A stretch of DNA of 37,079 nucleotides from positions 1-37,079 of IMG/VR virus record IMGVR_UViG_3300006752_000078; one strand, given 5' to 3'. Positions within the stretch are counted from its first letter, which is position 1. Each line of letters begins with the position of its first letter. This DNA comes from a virus. A program made the translations under genes and the position numbers. The notes beneath the pieces were generated by a model. It had not been told where the DNA came from and ran no database searches. It saw nothing but the letters and a program-made list of their open reading frames with translations. This document shows, piece after piece, positions 1-36,373 of the stretch.

Positions 1-3000
1 ACACCAGTCCCATTTGTTCGTGTAAATGTATAATTATCAGTTGAGTTAGTTACACCTTCGAATACTTCCATATCCGTAGTTGCCCCAACAAACGATACAA
101 TTGTTCCATCATTTTGAGAGGCAAATGTATGAGCTTCATTCGTAAGGAATGTAGTTACTGCATCCGAACCATCCGCACCATCCGAACCATCCGTACCATC
201 CGCACCGTCTGCCCCATCACTACCAGCAGCACCATCTGCTCCACCTTCTACTTTAAATACCTTTGTTGAATCAGATAAATTATTTGCATTGTTTGATACA
301 GATACAGTTAATGGTAAATCTGATTTTGCTAAAGATGAGAATGGAACTGTAAATGTCTGTTGCCCAGTACCACTACTAATTGTACCACTTAAAGATGGAG
401 TAGTAAGTGTACTACCACCAGCTTTTGTGATTGTAATATCACCTGTATCGATTGTATGTGCTAAATTTTGTTGAGCTATTGTAAATACAATTGATGATGG
501 GGTTGCTGAATTATCAGATGAATCATCAAATCCAAATACTTGTGAATCAGATGTGATTGTTAATATTTTTGCAGATGAACCATCTAATCCATCACTACCA
601 TCCTGCCCATCACTACCATCCTGTCCATCAGTACCATCCTGTCCATCAGTACCTTGTTTAGCTTTTGTTAAACTCATTAGTTTACTTAAACTAACTTCAC
701 CAGAAGCTCCACTTGCAGATACTGCTGTAATTATTAACGAACCACTATCATGTCCCATTGAAGTTACAGTAACTGTATTTGAACTAACAGATGAACTAAC
801 AGATGTTGTTGATGTTGCACTTATAGAATAATTTGAAGTTGTATTTGTAATACCTTTAAAAATATTAACATCGGTATCACCACCTGTAAATGAGATTATG
901 TTTCCGTTTGGTTGAGCGGCAAATGTGTGTGATTCATTTGTAAGAATCATTACTCTCGCATCTTCACCATCAGAACCATCAGCACCATCAGTACCATCAG
1001 TACCGTCTGCCCCAGCAGTACCACCTTCTACTTTGAATATTTTAACAGAATCTTGTAATCCATCTTTGGTTGCTGATATTTGAATCGGTAGATTTGATTT
1101 AGTTCCAGCTGCCCCACCATTATTTAATGCTTGTGAGAATACAATAGAACCACTTACGATACCTGTTCCACTACTAATATCAGAATTATTAAAATCAAAG
1201 TTAGTAATATTAGAACCACCAGCGGTTGTAATTGTTAAATCACCCGATACAATTGCTGCTGATAAGTTTTGTTGTTGGAAACTAAAGAATATTTCTAATG
1301 GGTCTGAAGAACTATCTGCTGCATTATCAAATGCAAATACCTGAGAATCTAAACTACCTATTAACAACTTAGCAGCCGTTCCATCTGAACCATCTGAACC
1401 TTGTTTAGCTTTTGTTAACGACATTGTTTTAGATAAACTAACACTAGCAGATGTTGCAGTAATCTTCACACTACCACTATCGTGAGTTAATCCACTAATA
1501 GTTACTTTTTTACCATCATCATTTGCAGTTACACCTGGCCCTCTTGATGAGGATATCGTATAATTGGATGTTCTATTTGTAATACCTTCGAATACTTCCA
1601 TCTCAGTACTACCACCTACAAAGGATGCGATAGCACCAGTAGAATCAGCAGGGAAGGTGTGTGATTCATTAGTTAAGAAAGCAGTTACTGCATCAGCTCC
1701 ATCCGACCCATCGGCTCCATCCGAACCATCGCTACCATCCGAACCATCAGAACCTGCCGTACCACCTTCAACCTTAAATATTTTTAAACTATCCTCTAAA
1801 GAATCTTTAGATACAGTCACTGTTATTGGGAGCTTACTTTTAGTACCACTCACAATTCCACTAAATGTAATAGTACCTGTAACAGTACCAGTCCCATCAG
1901 TAACAGATGCACTTAATGTAGGGTCTGATAATGTATTACCTTGAGCATCAACAATAGTTAAATCACCAGTACCAATCGTACCACTTAAATTTTGTTGATT
2001 TATTGTGATAGCTATATCATTATCAATTGCCGTTGATGAAGATGCAGAAGGGAATGAGAATACCTGAGAATCTGATGATAGTGATAATAACTTAGCATCA
2101 CTACCAGCTAAACCTGCAGTACCTTGTTTGGATTTAGTTAACGACATTGTTTTTGAAAGTGATACACTTGCTGAGGTTGCGGTTATTGTAACTGAACCAC
2201 TATCGTGTGTCATACCACTTATTGTTACTGTCTTTCCACTATCCGTTGCCGTTACACCTGGTCCTCTTGAAGATGAAATAGTATAGTTTGAAGTTGAATT
2301 GGTTACACCCTCAAATACTTCCATATCTGTTGAGCCACCAACGAAAGAAATAATAGTACCATCACTTTCTGCAGTAAACGTATGTGATTCGTTTGTAAGG
2401 AATGTTGTAACAGCATCAGTACCATCTGCTCCATCCGTACCATCTGCCCCATCTGACCCATCACTACCAGCAGCACCATCTGCTCCACCTTCTACTTTAA
2501 AGAGTTTGATTGAATCACTTAACCCATCTTTAGTTACCGAAATGGTTACTGGGAAGTTAGATTTAGTAGAATTTAATCCACCACTATTTAATGCTCCAGT
2601 AAACGATACACTACCTGATGATATACCACTATGTTTACCACTACTATTTGTTACACTATTATTATCGAATCCAAAATTCGTTACATTACCACCAGCAGTC
2701 GATATTGTGATATCACCACTACCAATAGCAGCGTTTAAGTTTTGTTGGTTAAATGAGAATACAACTTCAGTTGGTGTTGCCGAAGTATCTGATGAATCAT
2801 CAAATGCCATTACTTGTGAATCAATACTAGCAACTAAAGTTTTTGCCGAAGTACCATCTAAACCATCTGTACCATCTGTACCATCTGCACCATCAGAACC
2901 AGTCTGTCCAGCAATTGCTTTGGATAAAGACATTGTTTTTGATAATGATGTACTTGCCGAAGTTGCTGTGATTATAATAGAACCACTATCGTGAGCCATC

Positions 3001-3290
3001 GATGTTACTGTAATTGTGTTTGAACTAATAGAAGAACTAACTGAGGTGGTTGAACTTCTACTATATGAATATGAATTTGTTTTATCAGTTACACCTTCAA
3101 ACACAATCATATCCGTTGAACCACCAGTTAGAGATACAATACTCTTATCAGGATTAGCGGCAAATGTATGAGCTTCATTAGTTAAGAAAGCAGTTACTGC
3201 ATCTGTACCATCTGTTCCATCTGTTCCATCACTACCATCTGTTCCATCACTACCATCCGACCCATCACTACCACTTGCAGCTGCTTGAAC
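1..3290 (-). repeat. Tandem protein-coding modules of about 722-780 bp with Gly-X-Asp linkers
   Basis: The VEGG-encoding sequence (plus strand ccacctt) recurs at about 241, 1021, 1763 and 2485, spacings of 780, 742 and 722 bp. Each is followed on the coding strand by a Gly-X-Asp run (plus coordinates about 148-240, 957-1020, 1686-1760 and 2412-2490, with a related run at about 3196-3280 without VEGG). A second, shorter linker lies in each module at about 576-660, 1378-1410, 2080-2130 and 2848-2910. The copies are clearly homologous in protein sequence but diverged in DNA, so this is an old duplication series under selection rather than a recent tandem repeat. Confidence 0.85.
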
Positions 3291-5531
3291 ACCAAACAAT
3301 GTTAAGGTATCGTTTGCTATTGCAGAACCACCAGATGCTACTTCGAATGTTTTTACTTCATATGTAACTGGTGTTGATGCCGTTGGTAATTCATTTGATT
3401 GGTCTGCTACAAATGTATTAGATGTACCTCTAGCACCCTGCAAAGAACCACCTTTACGGAATTCGTAATATACAGTTCCAACGTGATTTTGTTGTGTTGC
3501 CGTTAATGTTATAGTTTGACCTGTAGGGTCTTGGTTTCCTAATGAGTTAAATGTAACAACATAACTACTAGCACCTAAAGCTACTGTTTTAGAAGTGTTA
3601 GATGATGTTGCTTCTGCAAGAGCATTACCCACATCACTACCATCTGATAATTGTAATTGTCCTCTAATTACCAATGCCTCAGTAGTTGGATTCCAAACTA
3701 ACTTATTACCTAATGAAAAGTTTGAACCTGAATCTACATAGAATCCTGTATTAGAATTATTATATGTTCCACTTCCTGCAAATAGTTTATTATCTACTAA
3801 TTTTAATCCACCAATAGAGCCAGATGTAAACTTAGCAAAACCTTGTTGTGTTATAGCGGCTTTCGCTGTGTTTATATTAGTACCCGATGGAGTAAATATA
3901 TTGTTTACACTTAAATCGGCCTCAATGGTTGCATCTGCCCCAATAATCAAACTATTATTTTTTGGGTCTAAATGAAATATTGATGAACTGATTTCTATAT
4001 TAGAATCAGAACCACTAATATATTGTGATGTTTCAGTACCTATAAAAAACTTATCAGTTTTAACATCTAATATACCACCATCGGCAGTTGAGAATATAAG
4101 GTGTCTATCATCGTTATCACCAATGAATTGCATACCAACACCTTGTAGTACATCAGCCCCCATCTTTAAATTATTAGAACCACTATAGATTACAAATCCA
4201 CCTGGCGCAGTTCCTAATGATGCTGATGTCTGTCCTTTGAATCCAACAGAACGCATGAATCCACTACTAGCCCCACCAATCTCTAATCCAGTACCCAATG
4301 CATTTGATATAAAAAGAGAACCACTAATTAAATTTTGTGAACCACCAATATATTGATTTCCACCTGCGAATACAAATGGAGAAGATAATGTTTCCGTTCT
4401 TGATATCTCACCAATTGAGTTAAGATATTGAATTTTTAATAACTTAGGGTCTTGTAAGTTTTCAGATGGCATTGGTATCTTCACACTAAATGAAGAACTA
4501 AATGGTACTGCTACTTCATTTAATAATTCAAATTCACCTGGCAACCCATCTGATTTTTGAAGTACTTTTACTTTATCAACAACACCAGCTATTGGGTCTA
4601 CATCTGTAAATGCTAAATTAACAAATGAACGTTGATTTTCAGTAGTTACGTTAGAACCACTTCTAACATATTGTATTGTATAATCCGATTCTTCAATCGA
4701 ATTGTAAGTATGTTTTAAACCTTCTCTATCTCTAAAGGTAGCTGTGTATGGGTTTTCTAAAAGAATTGTTGATGAATTCAACACCTTATTAATAGAACCA
4801 CTAAAGAAGGTTAGGTTTGTTGGTTTTTCTTTTGATTTAGGAGTAGCTGGTTCTGTATAGTTTGATAAAACTATAGAACTATCCTTCATCTCTTGATTAA
4901 AGGTACTACCATCTGTTATTTGTACAATTGGAGTTCTACCTTTAAGTATGTATCTAACTTTACCTGTCTGAGTTGTTCGATTTAATTTATTACCTGATTG
5001 TGGTTGGTTTTTATAAACTTCTATACTCTCAGATATAGATAAATTTGGTAATGTGGTTAATGGATTAAATATGATTGGAGTTATACTTTTTCTATCCCTA
5101 TCAACATTTACCTTAACCTGCCATCTTACATTATATTTATCTTTATAAGATGGTGGAATCGGGTTACCATCTTCCGTTTTAGTAGCTACACCAATTAACG
5201 TAATTATTGCCTCACCATTTGGGGTGTTATCATCACCTTTATCGTGGTAAATGTATAATGAAATTAACCTACTCTTATCATCTTCGATATAATCAGGTAT
5301 CTCATAGTAAATATCATTCCCATTGGAATCTCTTACATCTATAAGAATCTGAGTACCTTCTTTAAGATTTGTAGGATGGCCTGATATTCTTAAAAGGTTC
5401 TTACCCTTTGTGAGTATTTGAGGAACATCCGACACTCTAAAGAAGCTCGGTGATAATGTAGATTTATCATCAATTAAGACTGGTAAATCTTTAATGTTTT
5501 CCCTAAAAGATTTTTTTAATACTAAAGGCAT
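1..5531 (-). CDS. Giant modular tail fibre / adhesin-like virion protein (3' end outside the window)
   Basis: An open frame runs from an ATG at 5531 (preceded by GGAGATTGA, a good ribosome site) to the left edge without a stop, giving more than 1843 codons. Residues about 1-550 are an ordinary mixed segment. Residues about 550-740 (plus coordinates about 3900-3300) resemble the central part of host-specificity/tail-tip proteins, with runs such as KLVWNPTTEALVIRGQL. From about 3290 leftwards the protein consists of repeated modules, each starting with a Gly-X-Asp run (GSDGSDGADGTDG type), then a conserved FLTNEAHTFAAN segment, a serine/threonine-rich beta-like part with a HDSGS motif, a second Gly-X-Asp or KQG linker, a DSQVFxF segment and a VEGG end. 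Recognised as a fibre by composition, size and repeats, not by a specific family. It likely acts at the tip or side of the virion in host contact. It follows the Mre11-Rad50 gene by 26 bp. High confidence in the gene, moderate in the role. Confidence 0.85.
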   Translation of the reverse strand, partial: MPLVLKKSFRENIKDLPVLIDDKSTLSPSFFRVSDVPQILTKGKNLLRISGHPTNLKEGTQILIDVRDSNGNDIYYEIPDYIEDDKSRLISLYIYHDKGDDNTPNGEAIITLIGVATKTEDGNPIPPSYKDKYNVRWQVKVNVDRDRKSITPIIFNPLTTLPNLSISESIEVYKNQPQSGNKLNRTTQTGKVRYILKGRTPIVQITDGSTFNQEMKDSSIVLSNYTEPATPKSKEKPTNLTFFSGSINKVLNSSTILLENPYTATFRDREGLKHTYNSIEESDYTIQYVRSGSNVTTENQRSFVNLAFTDVDPIAGVVDKVKVLQKSDGLPGEFELLNEVAVPFSSSFSVKIPMPSENLQDPKLLKIQYLNSIGEISRTETLSSPFVFAGGNQYIGGSQNLISGSLFISNALGTGLEIGGASSGFMRSVGFKGQTSASLGTAPGGFVIYSGSNNLKMGADVLQGVGMQFIGDNDDRHLIFSTADGGILDVKTDKFFIGTETSQYISGSDSNIEISSSIFHLDPKNNSLIIGADATIEADLSVNNIFTPSGTNINTAKAAITQQGFAKFTSGSIGGLKLVDNKLFAGSGTYNNSNTGFYVDSGSNFSLGNKLVWNPTTEALVIRGQLQLSDGSDVGNALAEATSSNTSKTVALGASSYVVTFNSLGNQDPTGQTITLTATQQNHVGTVYYEFRKGGSLQGARGTSNTFVADQSNELPTASTPVTYEVKTFEVASGGSAIANDTLTLFGVQAAASGSDGSDGSDGTDGSDGTDGTDGTDAVTAFLTNEAHTFAANPDKSIVSLTGGSTDMIVFEGVTDKTNSYSYSRSSTTSVSSSISSNTITVTSMAHDSGSIIITATSASTSLSKTMSLSKAIAGQTGSDGADGTDGTDGLDGTSAKTLVASIDSQVMAFDDSSDTSATPTEVVFSFNQQNLNAAIGSGDITISTAGGNVTNFGFDNNSVTNSSGKHSGISSGSVSFTGALNSGGLNSTKSNFPVTISVTKDGLSDSIKLFKVEGGADGAAGSDGSDGADGTDGADGTDAVTTFLTNESHTFTAESDGTIISFVGGSTDMEVFEGVTNSTSNYTISSSRGPGVTATDSGKTVTISGMTHDSGSVTITATSASVSLSKTMSLTKSKQGTAGLAGSDAKLLSLSSDSQVFSFPSASSSTAIDNDIAITINQQNLSGTIGTGDLTIVDAQGNTLSDPTLSASVTDGTGTVTGTITFSGIVSGTKSKLPITVTVSKDSLEDSLKIFKVEGGTAGSDGSDGSDGSDGADGSDGADAVTAFLTNESHTFPADSTGAIASFVGGSTEMEVFEGITNRTSNYTISSSRGPGVTANDDGKKVTISGLTHDSGSVKITATSASVSLSKTMSLTKAKQGSDGSDGTAAKLLIGSLDSQVFAFDNAADSSSDPLEIFFSFQQQNLSAAIVSGDLTITTAGGSNITNFDFNNSDISSGTGIVSGSIVFSQALNNGGAAGTKSNLPIQISATKDGLQDSVKIFKVEGGTAGADGTDGTDGADGSDGEDARVMILTNESHTFAAQPNGNIISFTGGDTDVNIFKGITNTTSNYSISATSTTSVSSSVSSNTVTVTSMGHDSGSLIITAVSASGASGEVSLSKLMSLTKAKQGTDGQDGTDGQDGSDGQDGSDGLDGSSAKILTITSDSQVFGFDDSSDNSATPSSIVFTIAQQNLAHTIDTGDITITKAGGSTLTTPSLSGTISSGTGQQTFTVPFSSLAKSDLPLTVSVSNNANNLSDSTKVFKVEGGADGAAGSDGADGADGTDGSDGADGSDAVTTFLTNEAHTFASQNDGTIVSFVGATTDMEVFEGVTNSTDNYTFTRTNGTG

Positions 5532-5557: not shown

Positions 5558-8500
5558 CTATAAATATCTAATAGATGAAAATCCACCTAATTTTGTAATA
5601 TCTATAATTTGGTCTACCATATCTCTTGTTTTATCAATATGTGAAATCGTAACTATGAAATCAAATTGATTCTTTAGGTAATCGAATAATAAATATAGAG
5701 AATTAAAGTTATCCGTATCTAAAGAACCAAATCCCTCATCAATTGCTATGAAGTTTGGACGTGGTAGATTTGATACATTTACCAATGCGGTTCTAATAGC
5801 TACAGATGAAATAAATTTCTCCATACCACTTGTCAATTCTAACGGCCAATACTCATCAGTTCCATACGCAATATATGAATTAATATTCTTACCATCTGTA
5901 TTTAGAAGGATTTGGAAATCTACAATTGGTTGTAGTATATTATTAATCTCTACTTCTAACTTTGGAAGTATCTCTGAAATTAGTTCGTATGGAATTCCAT
6001 CTCTTCTAACACATTGTAAATAATATTCATACCCTTCATACTTTTGTTCCATAAATTCTAACTTATCGATAGAATCATTTACTGTTTGAATCATATTTTG
6101 TGAAATACGAATATCGCCATTGATATCAATTATATCATCATTTAAATCAGAAATATCAATATCTAAATAATCTAAAGAATCCTTTGTTTTATCAATTTTT
6201 TGTTGTATCTTTGTATTATGCTTTACTGATGCTTTTTGTTCTAAAGATTTATTTATGTTATCTTCAGTAGAATCTAATTTACTTTTTAACTCAGATAATT
6301 CTAAATTACAGGATTTGTTTGTTAGTTCTAATTTTTCTATTTTATTAGATAAATCATCTGATTGTGATTTTAGTTCTTGAACTGTAACTAATACTTCTCT
6401 AACATCATACTTAAACATCTCAGATTTCATATCGATAATTTCTTCACCTAATCTATTTGATTTTAGTTTTAACTTTTCGATATCATCAGATAATGTTTTT
6501 GATTTTTTAGCAAATGGTGTATTTTGATTCTTTACACAATGTTCACAATCATCATCGAATGTTAGTGAACCAATTCCATCTAAATGCTCTTGCTTATGTT
6601 CTATATCGGTATTGATAGAATCTAACGAATGTGTAATCTCTTCTAATCTACCAACATAGGATTGGTATTTTAAGTGATTATCTTTTAAAATATTTAAATC
6701 ATATGATTGATATAAACCAGATACCTTATCCAAATCTACAGATAAAGTTTCGATATCTGTAACATAACCATTACATTCTTTCGATTTATCTATTATTTGA
6801 ACTTTTAATTCTTTTTTAAGTTCTTTAAGAGAATCTGTATCTATGATTGTATCATCTACAGGTTTTAACTCAGATACTAAATTATCTTTAGTTTCTCTTA
6901 ACTCATTTCGTTTGTCTTTTAACTTAGATAGTTTATCATTATGTTTAATTAGTACCTTTTCATTCTTTTGTAAATCTTCTTTTGCTTCTACTAATTTATC
7001 AGTAAAGTTTTGATTCTTATAATCTTTTAGTAAAGCACTTAACTCTCTAATCTCATCATTAGCTATTTGATACAATTCTTCAAATACATTCATATCTAAG
7101 AATTGAGCAAGAAGTTCTTTCTTCTCTCTTTGTGATTTCTCAATGAACCCACCACTATTAGATTGATTAGACATTGCTGTAAGAATAAAATCTTCATACG
7201 AACCAACATACTGTCTGATTATAGAGTTTGTATCTCTTCTCTCTTCACCATTTAGAGATTCAGTAGAACCATCTTCGTTTATCCGATAGAAGTTTACATC
7301 AACCTTTACAGTTCCCCTCTTAGGCGACTTCTTACCAACTCTTTCGATAAAGTAATCAATACCATTAATCTCAAAGTTAAACTTACAATCAAACTTTGAT
7401 TTAGAGTAATTCAATACATCCAATGCTTTGTTTGTTCGAGAACACTTATCAAATAAACAGAATGATAGAGCATCCCATAATGATGATTTACCACTAGCGT
7501 TTGGAGCAAAGATTCCATATGCCCCTTTCATTTGTGAGAAATCAACTACATTGTTTGTACCATATGAAAACATATTAGAGAACTCAAATGTTTTTGGTTT
7601 CCATATAATGTTTTTCATTCCGTGAACACCACCCAACTTATTGTTTATATCTTGATTGATGTTTCGTATCACTTCCATTTGTTCATCAGCGATGATGTAC
7701 TTATCTGATAGATACTTTTCCATCATTTTATTTTGGAATCCAATATCTCTTACGTTTTGTAATGTGATGTTTGAATCACCAATAGAATCGTTTCTATCTG
7801 ATAATACTTTTTGAATCGTTAGTTCTTGTACTTTTCTACCAACCTTAACTTCTGATATAATTTTCTTTAGTTGTGATTGTGATGTATCTTTTACCCTAAC
7901 TCTCATACGAGGTTTGTTAGGTATCGTTGGATTACCTATCAACTTTCCGTTCTCAACATCTAAGGTTACATATCCATAATCATTGTGAATCGGAACAAAC
8001 TCTGATTCTTTGGTTTCAATATCCCATACCAAAATACCATGCTCAGGATATTTGGCTTCGGCATGATTCTGCATAATCGTAGAACCACAATACTTTATCG
8101 TACCCTCATCGTTTAATGATTGATTTGGTACGTGAATATCCCCCAATAGAACTAAATCGTAACCATCGAATGAATCTACCTTTACGTTTTTATTCTCTAA
8201 TTGGAATCCGTATTCTGTTTTTACCTTATCTACAGGCGCATGATATAAGGCAATCTTATAATCACCATGCACCTCTTCAGCAGGAATAATTTCTTTTACA
8301 TCACCGAAAACAGATGAGTGTGAAAAGGAAATTCCACCCATTTTCCAAACTCCATCATCTTTCAGATAATGTAGATTAGGATGATTCAATGCGTTTACGA
8401 TTGGTGATAATGCATCTAATCTATTTGGATTGTTTAGATTGGCGTCGTGATTACCTGGTATCAGAATAGTTGGTAACATATCCGATAACGATTTTAGAAA

Positions 8501-8731
8501 TGTTTGAGTCATTTCTATAACTTCAGGTGTCATATCAGTTTTAGCATGAACGATATCACCACACAACACTATGATGGATTTATCATTCATTGTCGATGAA
8601 ATATACTCATAAAGATGGTTAAATACTTCACGATACTCTTTATGTCTTTTTAAATTTCTGATATGTACATCAGCTATGTGGTAAATCTTTTCAATTGTAC
8701 CATCATACTTAATTCTCTTCGATTTTCTCAT
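5558..8731 (-). CDS. Single-chain Mre11-Rad50 (SbcD-SbcC, gp47-gp46) nuclease-ATPase fusion
   Basis: This 1057-aa protein joins two enzymes that are usually separate. The N-terminal third is a calcineurin-like phosphoesterase with all the expected metal motifs: DVH (21-23), GD (58-59), GNHD (93-96), H164 and GDIH (197-200). From about residue 378 it continues as a Rad50/SbcC ATPase: Walker A at 406-417 (GIFAPNASGKSS), a Q-loop near 523, long coiled coils at about 575-720 and 745-895, a zinc-hook CEHC at 729-732, an ABC signature variant LTSGME at 967-971, Walker B FIAIDEG at 994-1000 and a late ISH. T4 gp47 plus gp46 total about 900 aa, so little is missing. Expected role: ATP-gated end processing of phage DNA for recombination and replication. 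Its ATG overlaps the primase stop (ATGA), so the two are translationally coupled. Confidence 0.95.
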   Translation of the reverse strand: MRKSKRIKYDGTIEKIYHIADVHIRNLKRHKEYREVFNHLYEYISSTMNDKSIIVLCGDIVHAKTDMTPEVIEMTQTFLKSLSDMLPTILIPGNHDANLNNPNRLDALSPIVNALNHPNLHYLKDDGVWKMGGISFSHSSVFGDVKEIIPAEEVHGDYKIALYHAPVDKVKTEYGFQLENKNVKVDSFDGYDLVLLGDIHVPNQSLNDEGTIKYCGSTIMQNHAEAKYPEHGILVWDIETKESEFVPIHNDYGYVTLDVENGKLIGNPTIPNKPRMRVRVKDTSQSQLKKIISEVKVGRKVQELTIQKVLSDRNDSIGDSNITLQNVRDIGFQNKMMEKYLSDKYIIADEQMEVIRNINQDINNKLGGVHGMKNIIWKPKTFEFSNMFSYGTNNVVDFSQMKGAYGIFAPNASGKSSLWDALSFCLFDKCSRTNKALDVLNYSKSKFDCKFNFEINGIDYFIERVGKKSPKRGTVKVDVNFYRINEDGSTESLNGEERRDTNSIIRQYVGSYEDFILTAMSNQSNSGGFIEKSQREKKELLAQFLDMNVFEELYQIANDEIRELSALLKDYKNQNFTDKLVEAKEDLQKNEKVLIKHNDKLSKLKDKRNELRETKDNLVSELKPVDDTIIDTDSLKELKKELKVQIIDKSKECNGYVTDIETLSVDLDKVSGLYQSYDLNILKDNHLKYQSYVGRLEEITHSLDSINTDIEHKQEHLDGIGSLTFDDDCEHCVKNQNTPFAKKSKTLSDDIEKLKLKSNRLGEEIIDMKSEMFKYDVREVLVTVQELKSQSDDLSNKIEKLELTNKSCNLELSELKSKLDSTEDNINKSLEQKASVKHNTKIQQKIDKTKDSLDYLDIDISDLNDDIIDINGDIRISQNMIQTVNDSIDKLEFMEQKYEGYEYYLQCVRRDGIPYELISEILPKLEVEINNILQPIVDFQILLNTDGKNINSYIAYGTDEYWPLELTSGMEKFISSVAIRTALVNVSNLPRPNFIAIDEGFGSLDTDNFNSLYLLFDYLKNQFDFIVTISHIDKTRDMVDQIIDITKLGGFSSIRYL

Positions 8732-9667: not shown

Positions 9668-9699
9668 TAAATATACAAAAAATATTTGAATTAACCAAA
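9668..9699 (-). promoter_or_regulatory. Candidate promoter TTTG-N20-TATATTTA before the primase
   Basis: On the coding strand TTTG (9696-9699) is followed after exactly 20 bp by TATATTTA (9668-9675), then GAACAAT and the primase ATG. The layout matches the Bacteroidetes -33/-7 pattern (TTTG, TAnnTTTG) except for the last base. The same arrangement and spacing occur upstream of clpP. In AT-rich DNA a chance match is possible. Confidence 0.4.
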
Positions 9700-10116
9700 G
9701 AAATTTACTTTTTCTTTTTCATCTATCCATTCTTGTGGGATTTCTTTTTTAGCCCATTTGAATCCGTTCTTCTCACACCATTGTGCATATGTGGTTTTAG
9801 AACCTTTGTATATTTTAGAATTTGGGGATTGTAGTACGAACCTTAAATCCATATCAGGATTCTGTTCTTTTATTAATAAATGTTTTTTTCTATCCTCAGG
9901 TAAGAACCATCCTTTTGATTCTATGAAGATATTGTTAGGTAATCTAAAATCGGGTTTGTAAGTATGATTAGTTGCTGGTATTGTGTATGATACTTCGTGC
10001 TCTTCATACTCACCATCAATACCTTGTGATTTAAGTTGCTCATCTATGCGAGTTTCCAACCCACTTTTGTGTCCCTTCATCTTTTGGATGTGAGACCAGT
10101 TTCCTTTTTTATTCAT
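9691..10116 (-). CDS. Endonuclease I, T7 gp3-type Holliday junction resolvase
   Basis: Cuts branched DNA (four-way junctions) before packaging. Recognised by close likeness to T7 endonuclease I across the whole domain: SGLE, then a YEEHEVSYTIPATNHTYKPDF stretch, IFIESKGW, DRKKHLLIKEQ, KIYKGSKTTY and a closing EWI. The four catalytic residues of the family are present as Glu21, Asp56, Glu66 and Lys68 (numbered from this start). I chose the ATG at 10116, which gives 141 aa (T7 protein 149 aa) and leaves 13 bp after the upstream gene. An upstream in-frame ATG at 10164 would add 16 residues and run 35 bp into the end of the LamG gene, which looks less natural. It is the first gene of a three-gene DNA-processing set inside structural genes. 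Confidence 0.93.
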   Translation of the reverse strand: MNKKGNWSHIQKMKGHKSGLETRIDEQLKSQGIDGEYEEHEVSYTIPATNHTYKPDFRLPNNIFIESKGWFLPEDRKKHLLIKEQNPDMDLRFVLQSPNSKIYKGSKTTYAQWCEKNGFKWAKKEIPQEWIDEKEKVNFFG

Positions 10117-10129
10117 AACTATTCTTTTT

Positions 10130-12043
10130 TTAAAAACCTTGTGGATTCCATCGGAATTTACCATCAGGTCTTTTTTGTAAAATATGAGGTTGCTGTCTTG
10201 CTTTCGGTGCTTTGTTACCTAAATCAGAATCTTCCTTAGAAGCACTAAAGTGTGGAGTACCAAATGGGCCATCCATATCTAATCTAACTTTTACAGAAAT
10301 ATCAACATCGTTTCTATTTTGAATAGCCGATGCTAATTTACCAATAGCAATCAAATCCCCTTCCTTATTATATAATCCAATTTGTGTAAAGTATGGTGAG
10401 AAATCTGAACCTGTTACGAATGGTTTTAAGAACATTTCTCTAATATCATTATTTTTTCTTAATGATGGATTTGTACTTATATTGAATTCAGATGCACCTA
10501 CTTCACATACTACAGATGTTTCATACAATTTTTTTGTAGATTTATACTTTGCAGTAAATCCTCTATTTGTAGAATCGTAATCCCAATTACCATCCCCTAC
10601 TAATACATTTTTGTATTTTGGTCTTGGGTCTGAAACTACCACTATTCCATGATTGTAAAATACCTCACCTACAATATCTTCTTGATATGCCGAACCAGTG
10701 TTCCAATCATTGGATGATAATCCTTTAATTTCCGATGTAGTTAAAGCTCTTCTATAATATCTTAATTCATCTAACGAACCTGTTAGTGAGTTGTAATTAG
10801 TTCCGATTCTAGCTCTATCAGTTTTGGCGTTCATTCCGTATCTACCAACATCTGATATATACTTAGAACCTAATACTACATCGTATTCATTCCAAATTTC
10901 TTTTACCTTTATAGGAGTCGTACCTTCTTTAGTACCATCTACCCATAATTCTAAATTAGAACCTTTTTTATTAAATACAATGTGATGTTGATTACCATCG
11001 TTTATTTTAGTGGATGATGTAACTTCTACGTTTCGTAATCCATCTGATAAACTTGCAACCAACTTACCACTATTAGCAACACCGGCTGATTGATTATAAA
11101 CTTTTAAATCATATGGGAATATAGATGATTCATTATTTCTTTGTCTTGTTGCAATATTATTCTTTTTTCTAGTTCTAAACTCTTCGTTATAAGAACCATT
11201 TTTATTTAAAATCCAATTGTATGTTGAACTAACATCTGATTGAGATACAGGCATTTCTGTCCACAATGATATTGAATAATCATTTCCTTTTACAGGAGAA
11301 TATCGGTTTGTATTGTTTATTTTTATATAAGAATCCGTACCATTAAAAACAACCTTAGTTCCAGACGTTAATGATGCTGTACCTGTTGTTTTAATACCTC
11401 TTCTATATTCTAATGATTTACCAACTGCATGGTTTTGGTAACCACTTCTATCTTCAATCTTCTTATCAAAGTTTTTTCTAACAGGAACTACCTCATCGTT
11501 AAATCCCCAATAACCCATCAAATCCCCAAATGGAGCGTATGAACTTGTATTCAAAGATGTATCGATTAAGTACCCATGATATTCATCAATCTTTCTATCG
11601 ACTATATGAATATGTTCACCGATTCTACCTATTTGTGATTTATCATCAATTACTACTGAGCCCGGTAATATACCATCACCCAATCGTTGATGAGGTACTG
11701 AGAATATAGATGCCGAAACATATAAATCTCTTTCGTTGTTAGGTCTATGTTTAAAAAATTGTTGGTTTAACCCAGACCATATAACCTTTTGTTCTTTTTT
11801 AGCTAAGTTAGAAGTTGTATTTGAATTGGTGTTATCTAATTGAGAATCATCCGCAACCAATGAATTTTGAAATGATTGGGATAGGGGAACTTTCTCTCTG
11901 TAGAGTGGCGATATACCTTTTATGATGGATGTTTGATATAAATCATCTCTGTAATTTACATCGGTAACAATCCATCTTTTATGTGCATTGAAAGGGTAAA
12001 GTTGTAACCCACCCCCATTTATAGGTTTTAGTGCTTCTGCCAT
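10130..12043 (-). CDS. LamG (concanavalin-like) domain virion protein, probable fibre or tail adhesin
   Basis: A 637-aa protein. Residues about 176-434 form a LamG-like jelly-roll: it opens with MGYWGFND, has FNGTDSYIKI, ISLWTEMP and NQHHIVFNKKGSNLELWVDG, and closes with the typical GSLDELRYYRRALTTSEI. Such domains bind glycans or fold as trimeric fibre parts. Residues about 534-590 repeat the C-terminal module of the 366-aa gene next door (pattern GLYNKEGDLIAIGKL... VKVRLD). The start has AAGGA eight bases upstream and a TCATATTTATAG motif 22 bp before the ATG. It is the first gene after a strong terminator, so it probably begins its own transcript. Exact location in the virion is unknown. 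Confidence 0.8.
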   Translation of the reverse strand: MAEALKPINGGGLQLYPFNAHKRWIVTDVNYRDDLYQTSIIKGISPLYREKVPLSQSFQNSLVADDSQLDNTNSNTTSNLAKKEQKVIWSGLNQQFFKHRPNNERDLYVSASIFSVPHQRLGDGILPGSVVIDDKSQIGRIGEHIHIVDRKIDEYHGYLIDTSLNTSSYAPFGDLMGYWGFNDEVVPVRKNFDKKIEDRSGYQNHAVGKSLEYRRGIKTTGTASLTSGTKVVFNGTDSYIKINNTNRYSPVKGNDYSISLWTEMPVSQSDVSSTYNWILNKNGSYNEEFRTRKKNNIATRQRNNESSIFPYDLKVYNQSAGVANSGKLVASLSDGLRNVEVTSSTKINDGNQHHIVFNKKGSNLELWVDGTKEGTTPIKVKEIWNEYDVVLGSKYISDVGRYGMNAKTDRARIGTNYNSLTGSLDELRYYRRALTTSEIKGLSSNDWNTGSAYQEDIVGEVFYNHGIVVVSDPRPKYKNVLVGDGNWDYDSTNRGFTAKYKSTKKLYETSVVCEVGASEFNISTNPSLRKNNDIREMFLKPFVTGSDFSPYFTQIGLYNKEGDLIAIGKLASAIQNRNDVDISVKVRLDMDGPFGTPHFSASKEDSDLGNKAPKARQQPHILQKRPDGKFRWNPQGF

Positions 12044-32548: not shown

Positions 32549-32845
32549 TTACGCTTCATCTAATATAGATAAGAATTCACTTTCTCTATAAATGTGATAT
32601 GTTTTACCACCATTTTTGTGTTTGAATCCAGTTCCATCTAATAGAACTGTATCGCCCACCTTTGTACTCATAGGGATAATCTCACCCGAATGAGTAAATA
32701 ATCCACTACCAACGGCTACTACTGTACCCATCATTGTAGTTTCTGAACCTGATGGTTTGTATAAACCACCTTTAGTTTTTTCATCGTTTCTTTTGAGTAT
32801 CTCTACTACTACTCTATCCCCTAAGGGTCTATAATTGTATTCCAT
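32549..32845 (-). CDS. groES: GroES-type co-chaperonin (Cpn10)
   Basis: A 98-aa protein of standard Cpn10 size. The opening YRPLGDRVVVEIL is the family signature, the KTKGGLYKP segment (about residues 24-32) corresponds to the mobile loop that binds GroEL, and GTVVAVGSG and KVGDTVLLDG follow as expected. It closes the host GroEL cage, and in T4 the analogue gp31 is required to fold the major capsid protein. This one resembles bacterial GroES more than gp31. It lies three bases after clpP without a ribosome site. Confidence 0.96.
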   Translation of the reverse strand: MEYNYRPLGDRVVVEILKRNDEKTKGGLYKPSGSETTMMGTVVAVGSGLFTHSGEIIPMSTKVGDTVLLDGTGFKHKNGGKTYHIYRESEFLSILDEA

Positions 32846-32848
32846 AAC

Positions 32849-33493
32849 TTATATAATTTTATCAATAATTCCTAATTCTAATGCATCTCCTGCTGATAAG
32901 AAGTAATCAGTTCTCTGATTCTCTTTCCAAAACTCTTTATCTTTCTTTGTACATTCAGCCATAATGTTATTACAATCCTCTTCTAATTGTTCTGCGAACT
33001 TAGCGTTGGATTTAACATCTTCTAATTTACCCATATTGAATGTTGAAAGTTGGTGAACCATAATCTTAGAATGTTTAGATGCTGCTCTAAGACCTGTTCC
33101 TGCGGTTAAAAGAAGTGCCGCTGCACTCATAGCTGAACCTCTACAAACAATGTTCGTATCGATTCCTTCATTTTCTTTTATAGTTCTAATGTAATCTATT
33201 AGTGCTAATGTTTCTACTACATCACCACCTGGTGAATTTAGTAAGATAGTTACTGATTTTAAATCTTTGTTTATCTTTCTCAATAATCTAACTTTAGATA
33301 TTGTATCGAACACCATACCTTGTGATATCTCATCTTGTACTAAGATGATGTTTGAATCAATATCTAATCCGTAATCAAATTCTCTAAACTCCTGAAAGTG
33401 TTTATCTCTTTCGGATGGTGCTTTTACATCATAAGATGGTTGTATTTCACCACCAGTAGTTGTTGTTCTACCGTCATTATATAAATCGCTCAT
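32849..33493 (-). CDS. clpP: ClpP-type serine protease
   Basis: A 214-aa protein, close to the usual ClpP length. The family motifs are clear: LLNSPGGDVVETLALIDYI (85-103), the active Ser123 in RGSAMSAAALLLTAG, His147 in KIMVHQLS, and Asp196 in the TDYFLSAGDALELGIIDKI ending, so the catalytic triad is intact. It would form a barrel protease with a Clp ATPase, probably the host's, since none is in the window. In phages ClpP homologues may serve head maturation or protein turnover; with GroES next to it, a general proteostasis role is plausible. A TTTG-N20-TATATTTA promoter-like site lies upstream. The first 30 residues are likely a disordered leader. Confidence 0.95.
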   Translation of the reverse strand: MSDLYNDGRTTTTGGEIQPSYDVKAPSERDKHFQEFREFDYGLDIDSNIILVQDEISQGMVFDTISKVRLLRKINKDLKSVTILLNSPGGDVVETLALIDYIRTIKENEGIDTNIVCRGSAMSAAALLLTAGTGLRAASKHSKIMVHQLSTFNMGKLEDVKSNAKFAEQLEEDCNNIMAECTKKDKEFWKENQRTDYFLSAGDALELGIIDKII

Positions 33494-34863: not shown

Positions 34864-35769
34864 CTATGCTTCCGCCTGAATGTACTCTAAGATTGATAAT
34901 TCTTTAGCCTTAGCCTCTACCATAATATCTACATCTAAACCATAAGTATTAGGAACACTACTGATATAATCTGAGTGTGCTTGAGGTTTGAGTTTATCAT
35001 TACTCTCATGCAAAGATTTAGATTCTGAATAGTGAACTACAGGTTTGATATCACCCCAAGTAGATGCTGCAAGTTTGAGAGCTTCTTCCTCTGATAAATC
35101 TCCAGTACAAAATTTGTGGTGGTGATAATCGAATACAATAGGAATACCAATACGTTCATGTATGTACATCAAATCTTTTACTGAGTACATAGATGCTTTA
35201 TCATCGTTCTCTACAGTCAAACGAGTCTGAACTGATTCAGGCAACCTCTCAAAGTTCTTACAGAACCTATCCATAGCTGCAATCTTATCACCATATACAC
35301 CATTACAATGAATATTGAGTTTGTTGTACGGAGTACGGGATAATCCCATCAAATCAAATACCTCACCATGCGTAGTCAAATCAGTAATAGTATTTTGTAC
35401 AACATTTTCTTTAGGTGATACCAATACATTGAATGGGCCAGGATGTGATGTGATACGTTGATTGTACTTCTTAGCAAGATTTCCAGCACCAGCTAATAGG
35501 TTTTTGATACGATTGTAATGTGGCATTTCTGTGAGATTGTATTCAGATGCCCAAGGGAACATACCTGAACTCAACCTAAAGAAGTTGATACCATTCTGGT
35601 GATTCCATTTGATAATCTCTACTAAATCTCTACAATTCTGAATTCCTAACTCAGATGCGTAAGGAATACCTTTCTCATTGAAAGTTTTTTTAATCATACT
35701 ACGGTTGGTAGTAACTTTGGGTTTCTGTGAACCCAATGTCATGTTGATACATGCATAACCTAAATTCAT
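34864..35769 (-). CDS. uvsE: UV-damage endonuclease (UVDE/UvsE family)
   Basis: Nicks DNA 5' of UV photoproducts to start alternative excision repair. Recognised from the start MNLGYACINMTL, the FRLSSGMFPW segment, and the metal-site series ITSHPGPFNVL, LNIHCNG, TVENDDKASMY, VFDYHHHKFC, PVVHYSES and PQAHSDYI, in family order. Length 301 aa matches the family. I chose the ATG at 35769 because the protein then begins exactly at the conserved GYAC block; an upstream ATG at 35811 would lie in the terminator T-tract of the preceding operon. The gene stands alone between a terminator and an AT-rich gap, with its own candidate promoter. It suggests a phage or host exposed to sunlight. Confidence 0.94.
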   Translation of the reverse strand: MNLGYACINMTLGSQKPKVTTNRSMIKKTFNEKGIPYASELGIQNCRDLVEIIKWNHQNGINFFRLSSGMFPWASEYNLTEMPHYNRIKNLLAGAGNLAKKYNQRITSHPGPFNVLVSPKENVVQNTITDLTTHGEVFDLMGLSRTPYNKLNIHCNGVYGDKIAAMDRFCKNFERLPESVQTRLTVENDDKASMYSVKDLMYIHERIGIPIVFDYHHHKFCTGDLSEEEALKLAASTWGDIKPVVHYSESKSLHESNDKLKPQAHSDYISSVPNTYGLDVDIMVEAKAKELSILEYIQAEA

Positions 35770-35800
35770 AATGATACAATTTTTAATTATTATTATACTA

Positions 35801-35832
35801 CTAATATACAAAAAAAAGGGGACTTATACAAG
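35801..35832 (-). promoter_or_regulatory. Weak candidate promoter for the UV endonuclease
   Basis: On the coding strand TATATTAG (35801-35808) lies just after the terminator T-tract, with CTTG (35829-35832) 20 bp above it inside the terminator stem. This is a degenerate form of the TTTG-N20-TATATTTA pattern. The position, right after a terminator and 31 bp before the gene, supports a promoter more than the sequence does. Confidence 0.3.
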
Positions 35833-35852: not shown

Positions 35853-36038
35853 TTAAATATCTTCCCACTCTATATCCATAACTTCTTCACAAAAATAATA
35901 GTAAGGTTCTTTTTTAAATACTTTATCAGCCATTAAGTGCTCTTTCCATACTTGTACAACAGGTCGATGGTCGATTCGTATTCTTCTTTTCACTATCCAT
36001 AGAGTATTGTTAATATTTAAAATTTGTTTATTAAACAC
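35853..36038 (-). CDS. 61-aa protein coupled to Hsp20
   Basis: A 61-aa frame with a GTG start whose first base is the last base of the Hsp20 stop (TAGTG), so reinitiation is expected. The sequence looks like a real folded small protein: NTLWIVKRRIRIDHRPVVQV then WKEHLMADKVFKKEPYYYFC and an acidic EEVMDIEWED end. It is rich in Trp, Tyr and charged residues with no membrane segment. The terminator directly downstream supports a gene here. Function unknown; an internal ATG would leave only 26 residues. Confidence 0.6.
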   Translation of the reverse strand: MFNKQILNINNTLWIVKRRIRIDHRPVVQVWKEHLMADKVFKKEPYYYFCEEVMDIEWEDI

Positions 36039-36373
36039 TATCTAACGGATACTTCAATTACTTTGGCTTTCTTCTCTTCCATCTTCGGAATTGATACAGT
36101 CAATACACCATCCTTTACAGATGCCGTAGTTTTTGTTACATCAAAATCTTCACTAATACTGTAACGTTTATTAAAAGTTCGTTTCTCATTATCACCTTCA
36201 ATATACAGAACTGAATCTTCTACCTTTACGTTGATATCTTTTTTTGATAAACCAGGCACATCAAATTCCATAGTGAGTACATCATCTTCTAATCTCATAT
36301 TACGAGTATCTCTTTGAGGTTTTTTAAATACCTCATCCATTAAATCCCATGCGTTGTTCATTGTTAAAATCAT
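36038..36373 (-). CDS. Hsp20 / alpha-crystallin small heat-shock protein
   Basis: A 111-aa protein made almost wholly of the alpha-crystallin domain: LTMEFDVPGLSKKDINVKV, SVLYIEGD, KRYSISEDFDVTKTTASVKD and the hallmark GVLTVSIPK. The N-terminal arm is short (about 25 residues), and the C-terminal tail VIEVSVR carries the I/V-x-I/V motif used for oligomer contacts. It holds unfolding proteins and prevents aggregation without ATP. The ATG at 36373 has GGGA six bases upstream; a second ATG four codons in is possible. A tandem dyad site lies about 80-110 bp upstream. The gene is followed by the coupled 61-aa frame and a terminator. Confidence 0.95.
   Translation of the reverse strand: MILTMNNAWDLMDEVFKKPQRDTRNMRLEDDVLTMEFDVPGLSKKDINVKVEDSVLYIEGDNEKRTFNKRYSISEDFDVTKTTASVKDGVLTVSIPKMEEKKAKVIEVSVR

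Follow-up and report, generated by a model that had tools for sequence, protein, structure and literature searches.

A modular phage fibre of alternating Ig-like domains and acidic collagen-like linkers whose lengths follow a triplet rule

What is built by a phage gene in which folded segments alternate with short acidic Gly-X-Asp runs, and how could its product change in length without harm? The question is raised by a 37,079-bp IMG/VR fragment of an uncultivated phage, analysed here as a whole and referred to as the window, in which an initial annotation had recognised a modular fibre with collagen-like linkers. That description was borne out by the profile matches of the encoded protein, which hit the Pfam Collagen family (PF01391; 47.1 bits against a cut-off of 27.2, E 2e-12) as well as the PHROG family 'collagen like minor tail' (9e-27) and contains nine runs of 3–9 triplets. 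We propose, with a probability of about 0.75, that the repeated part of the protein forms a trimeric spacer arm, whose linkers act both as short triple helices and as recombination joints.

The gene had been confined to positions 1–3290, but its N-terminal ~750 aa lie outside that range (Table 1). It stands directly after an ORF at 5558–8731 (minus strand), where metallophosphoesterase and SbcC/Rad50-type ATPase domains are united in a single 1057-aa frame as a fused gp47–gp46-like recombination nuclease, and the same gene run contains gp25 (PF04965) and a gp6-like wedge protein. The gene product would be a long fibre of the tail (baseplate fibre) in a myovirus whose baseplate genes are T4-like. 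Residues 754–1843 hold nine Gly-X-Y runs of 9–27 residues, each beginning where one domain ends and stopping where the next begins. HMMs built from the window's own segments distinguish two domains, A and B, which alternate along a cassette of five A (starts at residues 778, 1040, 1281, 1525 and 1791, the final one truncated), four clear B (starts at 896, 1146, 1387 and 1654) and nine linkers. The initial annotation had described four modules of 722–780 bp ending in VEGG, followed by a fifth related start; indeed, the VEGG ends fall at residues 1013, 1254, 1501 and 1761, with spacings of 241, 247 and 260 aa (723, 741 and 780 bp), and the fifth copy runs off the contig. VEGG itself comprises the end of a B domain and the first Gly of the next linker. 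The alternation of folded segments and linkers also stood, although each module proved to contain two different domains with two linkers. As had been remarked, the copies differ: their DNA identity is about 60–75%, and they are old duplications.

Table 1. Features of the fibre gene in the window
Feature	Coordinates	Strand	Evidence or remark
Fibre gene, 1843 aa, 3' end cut at the contig end	3..5531	-	Complete genes of relatives likewise follow the fused gp47/gp46-like gene
Conserved N-terminal region, residues 1-400; FnIII-like beta-sandwich ~150-390	4332..5531	-	16-sequence alignment, model, fold matches
Residues 401-753: Gly/Ser-rich shaft-like stretch, then weak B-like domain (647-748, E 9e-4)	3273..4331	-	
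Linker 1, 24 aa (residues 754-777)	3201..3272	-	
Ig-like domain A1	2910..3200	-	HMM E 1e-38
Linker 2, 21 aa	2847..2909	-	
Ig-like domain B2, end VEG(G)	2487..2846	-	HMM E 6e-48
Linker 3, 24 aa	2415..2486	-	
Ig-like domain A3 (modelled)	2124..2414	-	HMM and structure model
Linker 4, 9 aa	2097..2123	-	
Ig-like domain B4 (modelled)	1764..2096	-	HMM and structure model
Linker 5, 24 aa	1692..1763	-	
Ig-like domain A5	1401..1691	-	HMM
Linker 6, 9 aa	1374..1400	-	
Ig-like domain B6	1023..1373	-	HMM
Linker 7, 21 aa	960..1022	-	
Ig-like domain A7	654..959	-	HMM
Linker 8, 27 aa	573..653	-	
Ig-like domain B8	243..572	-	HMM
Linker 9, 27 aa	162..242	-	
Ig-like domain A9, cut at the contig end	3..161	-	HMM E 4e-22

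An AlphaFold2 monomer model of one linker-A-linker-B-linker unit, obtained from a 37-sequence alignment, predicted both A and B as full Ig-like beta-sandwiches of about eight strands with pLDDT near 90, while the linkers reached 52–67. The best fold match of A was a Bacillus anthracis Sap S-layer domain (Z 9.3), whereas B best resembled Ig domains of KIT (Z 9.2 and 9.0) and DIP-alpha (Z 8.9), antibody constant domains scoring almost as well; such values indicate a shared fold and nothing beyond. Among predicted viral proteins, the A-linker-B unit found its top fold matches in pb4 of phage My1 (E 5e-15) and in a gpJ-type central straight fibre protein. Beta-sandwiches were likewise predicted for the N-terminal 400 residues (mean pLDDT 82), with matches to FnIII domains (Z about 10) and T5 pb4 (Z 8.3), and this conserved part would attach the fibre to the virion. 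Searches by sequence against solved structures returned nothing at E ≤ 1 for the protein as a whole, and for the module profile only two weak matches (E 0.19 and 0.33) that we did not trust.

Relatives were gathered from IMG/VR as overlapping sets of 17 loci via the fibre, 29 via the fused gp47/gp46-like gene and 70 via the module profile. The earlier suggestion that domain number and order vary among relatives was upheld, since complete fibres contain 0 (L151, L162, L164), 2 (L216), 4 (L156), 6 (L200), 8 (L204), 10 (L014, L183, L203), 11 (L006), 14 (L008), 16 (L010) or 18 (L004) A/B domains. With none to eighteen beads, the string looks like an add-on arm of evolvable length. In the cleanest case, residues 1–971 of L156 match L162 (78%) and L151 (74%), two fibres devoid of A/B domains, residues 1760–2941, up to its end, align to the same two (50% and 64%, respectively), and the cassette at residues ~972–1759 is missing from both. 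By these alignments, the cassette is cleanly inserted, with the conserved N-terminus on one side and, on the other, a tip that bears Peptidase_S74 in most complete relatives. The removable A/B and Gly-X-Y cassette would then be a spacer arm leading, in complete relatives, to a variable C-terminal tip. This domain, a trimeric intramolecular chaperone, was detected in the same ORF in seven relatives (L008, L010, L012, L151, L156, L162 and L164) and in the next ORF in L004 and L014; no adjacent Peptidase_S74 gene was found beside the complete fibre of L006. The C-terminus of the window fibre lies beyond the contig end, and the presence of this domain in relatives points indirectly to a trimer. 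Ig domains are about 4 nm long. Counting 4 nm per Ig domain and 0.286 nm per residue, the cassette would reach ~89 nm in the truncated gene of the window and 69–148 nm in the five complete relatives computed, figures that hold only if the triple helix is real. The corresponding rise in EPcl is given as 2.88 Å in the accessible part of PMC3368898. Reach may well be the property under selection.

Asp had been said to occupy every third position of the linkers. In the 62 triplets of the window it holds the Y position in 84%, although not everywhere, as two linkers are just nine residues long (GTAGLAGSD and GSDGSDGTA); X is Ser, Thr or Ala, Lys, Arg and Pro are absent, and the net charge amounts to -0.85 per triplet. 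Gly-X-Asp runs of at least two comprise 49 triplets, whereas 2000 same-residue shuffles averaged 0.32 and never exceeded 6. Nine distinct relatives show Asp at 23–62% of Y positions, with basic residues at 1 per 435 triplets in total. When IMG/VR was scanned for six consecutive Gly-X-Asp triplets, at least 120 stretches carried them, and Gly-X-Asp as a unique signature was therefore rejected. Among the matches listed, 119 of 120 stretches had an ORF containing the run, 24 of these 119 had no Lys or Arg, Lys or Arg often stood at X, and the charge of the window linkers fell at the 7th percentile of Gly-X-Asp runs (of four or more triplets in the IMG/VR set, three or more in the fibre family). 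Since Asp/Glu at Y accounts for 0.1–7.8% across non-animal groups in Table 4 of PMC3368898, as far as the available text goes, and long Gly-X-Asp runs are common in IMG/VR, such acidity departs from what has been published but is by no means a rarity in nature. Calcium-binding repeats of RTX or EF-hand-like type were rejected as well, the RTX nonapeptide GGxGxDxUx being absent from all 1843 residues and DxDxD/G motifs from the protein. The flavobacterial-type O-glycosylation motif is D[ST][AILVMT]; none of its seven occurrences in the fibre falls inside a Gly-X-Y run, which lends no support to glycosylated linkers. A different linker design appears at residues 1242–1333 of the L155 fibre, where GISPVKGVDYFDG repeats mixed with Gly-X-Y triplets follow an A domain up to the contig end.

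The charge of the linkers could suggest, in line with the cation dependence raised in the initial annotation, a salt- or cation-gated rod, unfolded in low salt and stiffened into triple helices at the ionic strength of sea water. Salt dependence is plausible, because in the accessible part of PMC4030969 crowded Asp destabilises collagen homotrimers and NaCl restores their stability, the Tm of (DDG)3-block peptides, 20.8 and 17.5 °C without NaCl, reaching 31.8 and 29.4 °C, respectively, at 500 mM. However, the same architecture occurs in relatives with far less Asp (23–40% of Y positions), so that strong acidity is not required, and the divalent-ion motifs named above are lacking in the protein. 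We consider such gating rather unlikely. Slightly better, though still doubtful, are the prospects of a combined reading, according to which the linkers would be, as protein, acidic triple helices stiff only at sea-salt ionic strength and, as DNA, a 9-bp Gly-X-Asp code serving as shared joints at which recombination moves Ig pairs from phage to phage, reading frame and helix register being preserved every time. The fibre would in that case be a self-indexing, extendable arm, with its length and bead order reshuffled at a much higher rate than other parts of the genome. Should the strongly acidic linkers indeed depend on salt, they would represent a naturally occurring collagen adapted to sea water, opposite in design to the collagens of animals and EHEC phages, which are rich in Pro and have paired charges.

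The proposed role of the linkers as joints in the spacer arm is approached by comparing fibres. Between the window and L005, domains A1, B2 and A3 are 96–97% identical in protein, against 78% for the neighbouring N-terminus, while the linkers that precede A1 and follow B2 and B4 measure 24, 24 and 24 residues in the window and 15, 12 and 12 in L005; linkers thus vary fast. Along the locus, the window is closer to L006 (95%) than to L005 (78%) in gp46/47 but closer to L005 (78%) than to L006 (59%) in the fibre N-terminus, and closer to L005 in the modules too. Near relatives differ in units of entire domain pairs. L187 and L010 share 94.8% DNA identity up to the linker past the first B, whereupon L187 has an extra A-B pair, and L014 and L216 are 90.9% identical as far as the linker at residue 1318, which is followed by nine more domains in one and one in the other. 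L147 (identical to L003) and L156 have in common 1138 bp at 93.3% inside the modules, compared to 74.0% over the 4.7 kb upstream; both ends of this block lie in linkers, and at the left-hand end identity leaps from about 0.4 to 0.9. In L004, three domain pairs are closest to L006 and flanked by stretches closest to L146, with exceptions such as A11. A scan of all pairs of 24 fibres yielded eight blocks of at least 200 bp and at least 88% identity. Their 16 ends included six at a sequence end, one outside the module region and nine that could be scored, seven of which lay in linkers against 2.3 expected, in what is a small and non-independent set, though its trend runs one way. These data suggest how a phage can lengthen or reshuffle its fibre unharmed, by swapping domain pairs at linkers of common sequence whose register is preserved.

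The high identity of A1, B2 and A3 might also be read as a sign that the Ig beads themselves matter and not the length, the fibre being an array of weak glycan binders that keeps the phage close to mucus or to the surface of the cell, while the linkers merely space them. Phage Ig-like domains have been proposed to bind surface carbohydrates, a statement made of T5 Ig/OB domains in the available text of PMC10038345. On the other hand, no carbohydrate-binding family matched the A or B domains, and synonymous differences are also fewer in A1-B2 (18 of 108 fourfold sites) than in the N-terminus (45 of 120), so the identity may stem in part from recent exchange. A glycan-binding array is accordingly judged unlikely.

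A spacer arm held by triple helices makes a prediction of its own, namely that the linker length between fixed flanking points should shift by threes only. We examined the window together with nine of 17 loci, the remaining eight (L007, L011, L013 and L015–L019) being copies of these. Between in-domain anchors, all 38 B-to-A lengths (11–44 residues, ten different lengths) fell in one class modulo three, as did 37 of 38 A-to-B lengths (24–45 residues); the lone exception was found in L010 near residue 1902, and one further A-to-B junction had no anchor. Glycine in the B-to-A linkers was distributed by phase as 203/8/4, with 38 of 38 linkers perfect. The rule was also obeyed by junctions not used in deriving it (26 of 26 B-to-A and 18 of 18 A-to-B), whereas domain-internal lengths, taken as a control, spread over the three classes (24/9/6 of 39 for B and 35/7/6 of 48 for A). 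With raw HMM boundaries, before anchoring, the main class comprised 38 of the 43 lengths from B to A and 30 of the 39 from A to B, and an A-to-B anchor pattern that mixed two start points, giving 16 and 8 of 24 in two classes, was replaced. Because the junctions, like the fibres, share ancestry, the counts are not independent and we claim no p-value for the rule. In the window, 33 distinct 9-mers with mixed codons encode the 62 triplets, which argues that the phase of glycine is kept by selection on the protein and not by fresh copying, although slippage of 9-bp units could partly produce the triplet-wise changes in length. The rule provides a simple sequence test of whether a linker really forms a triple helix, in which the length from anchor to anchor must be constant modulo three and the domains supply the control; it needs no structure and can be applied to any fibre family.

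This regularity bears on a third alternative, in which the linkers are flexible acidic tethers, disordered and mutually repelling, so that three loose chains are joined only at their ends, partly as in the FnIII strings of T5. The low pLDDT of the linkers in the monomer model would agree with it, as would the lack of Pro and the effect of Asp crowding on homotrimers noted above; in the accessible part of PMC10038345, the FnIII strings of the T5 central fibre begin as three independent strings and a negative patch suggests repulsion. The same features weigh on the triple helix, since Pro-free, Asp-crowded linkers should make weak helices (by the peptides in the available text of PMC4030969) and many have just three triplets. 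Yet disorder requires neither Gly at every third residue nor a length rule kept at all but one of the anchored junctions, and loose tethers are in our view distinctly unlikely. Returning to the trimeric spacer arm, a parallel homotrimer would set three A or three B domains abreast as beads, and each linker would wind into a short triple helix holding the three chains in register. The arm could then change length either by gain or loss of whole triplets (9 bp) within linkers, or by linker-to-linker recombination that adds, drops or swaps whole Ig pairs, with frame and helix register left intact.

That one module was expanded or collapsed by the assembler, a possibility raised with the first description of the locus, is hardly credible and was rejected in the main on the DNA divergence of the copies, which argues against an expanded single copy, and independent contigs carry complete genes with differing copies, even though, among 20 loci with a complete gp46/47 match, a contig end lay within 10 kb on the fibre side only in 10 and on the other side only in 1 (two-sided p 0.012). 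Eight of the nine partial loci outside that count end inside gp46/47 itself, so contig breaks are not special to the repeats, and ends near the fibre gene possibly reflect strain diversity there. The fibre ORF was open at the contig end in 13 of 23 loci, including L148 (755-aa ORF). The 'complete genome' record of Microcystis phage Mel-JY01 (PP395634.1; L174, 27739–30002) likewise stops inside an unannotated ORF related to the fibre N-terminus. Bacterial and archaeal genomes gave a single match, a 5195-bp contig from a Euryarchaeota bin in GTDB (JABJFP010000295.1; L177), which encodes ABABA modules 58% identical to the query module and is probably a misbinned phage contig.

The cassette of this fibre is genuine, clearly delimited and extendable, and the principle of a collagen-linked arm is already known from lactococcal and streptococcal phages. 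Tal of the lactococcal phage BK5-T (P335 type I) is described in the accessible part of PMC9692632 as a trimeric adhesion protein with ten repeats of a small beta domain and a short collagen-like linker, measuring 140 nm as against 45 nm in the one-unit C41431, where copy number acts as a spacer. The window fibre shares with it the repeated beta domain, the collagen-like linker and a variable copy number (0–18 domains). However, BK5-T Tal is a siphophage tail-tip protein of a Gram-positive host whose repeat is a three-stranded half-FnIII '3beta' domain, a repeat that the window lacks, its A and B being full, alternating Ig-like sandwiches; trimers were predicted for BK5-T, whereas the window unit is known from a monomer model. 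Tals of Streptococcus thermophilus phages (PMC9437275) are a close precedent, but they carry carbohydrate-binding modules on the linkers, with no long array of Ig pairs described in the available part of that report. Pectobacterium phage My1 pb4 contains two A domains (A-HMM E 6e-16 and 2e-11) 207 residues apart, the first followed by GVEGIAGTA, but this T5-like siphophage protein has short linkers and no B domain detectable by the window-family HMMs. In addition, its gene follows that of the baseplate hub pb3, in contrast to the fused gp47/gp46-like gene in the window; since the window gene is not directly after pb3, the fibre was not filed as pb4.

Collagen domains in trimeric phage tail proteins have experimental support in EPcl, from side-tail proteins of E. 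coli O157:H7 prophages (accessible part of PMC3368898). EPcl differs in having a single long collagen domain with Pro or an acidic residue at X and a basic residue, Ala, Gln or Thr at Y; Asp/Glu at Y reaches 0.1% in EPcl and 7.8% in other viral collagens (Table 4 there), and the window reverses this arrangement, with Ser/Thr/Ala at X and Asp at Y. FibU, a baseplate fibre of Staphylococcus phage 80alpha, also combines an Ig-like domain with a predicted collagen-like triple helix, but in one short stretch, and a trimer is expected while density is reported for only twelve copies (available text of PMC7048315). In a full-text search of the literature that included few subscription journals, we came upon no paper that treats this fibre, a rule by which linker length changes in triplets, or a use of Gly-X-Asp linkers as joints. 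New in detail are the alternation of two Ig domains as a pair and, for the linkers, their acidity, their triplet-wise length and their joint-like character.

Elsewhere in the window, a Phage_endo_I gene (T7-type Holliday junction resolvase) at 9691–10164 (minus strand) gave a strong match (7.6e-55), though the phage has T4-like baseplate genes. Further phage-encoded genes on the minus strand specify Cpn10 (GroES-like), Clp protease and Hsp20 (32549–33493 and 36038–36373) and a UV-endonuclease UvdE (34864–35811, 2.3e-68). The ORF at 10130–12043 (minus strand) encodes a 637-aa protein with a Laminin G/concanavalin A-like lectin domain, which could represent a second adhesin.
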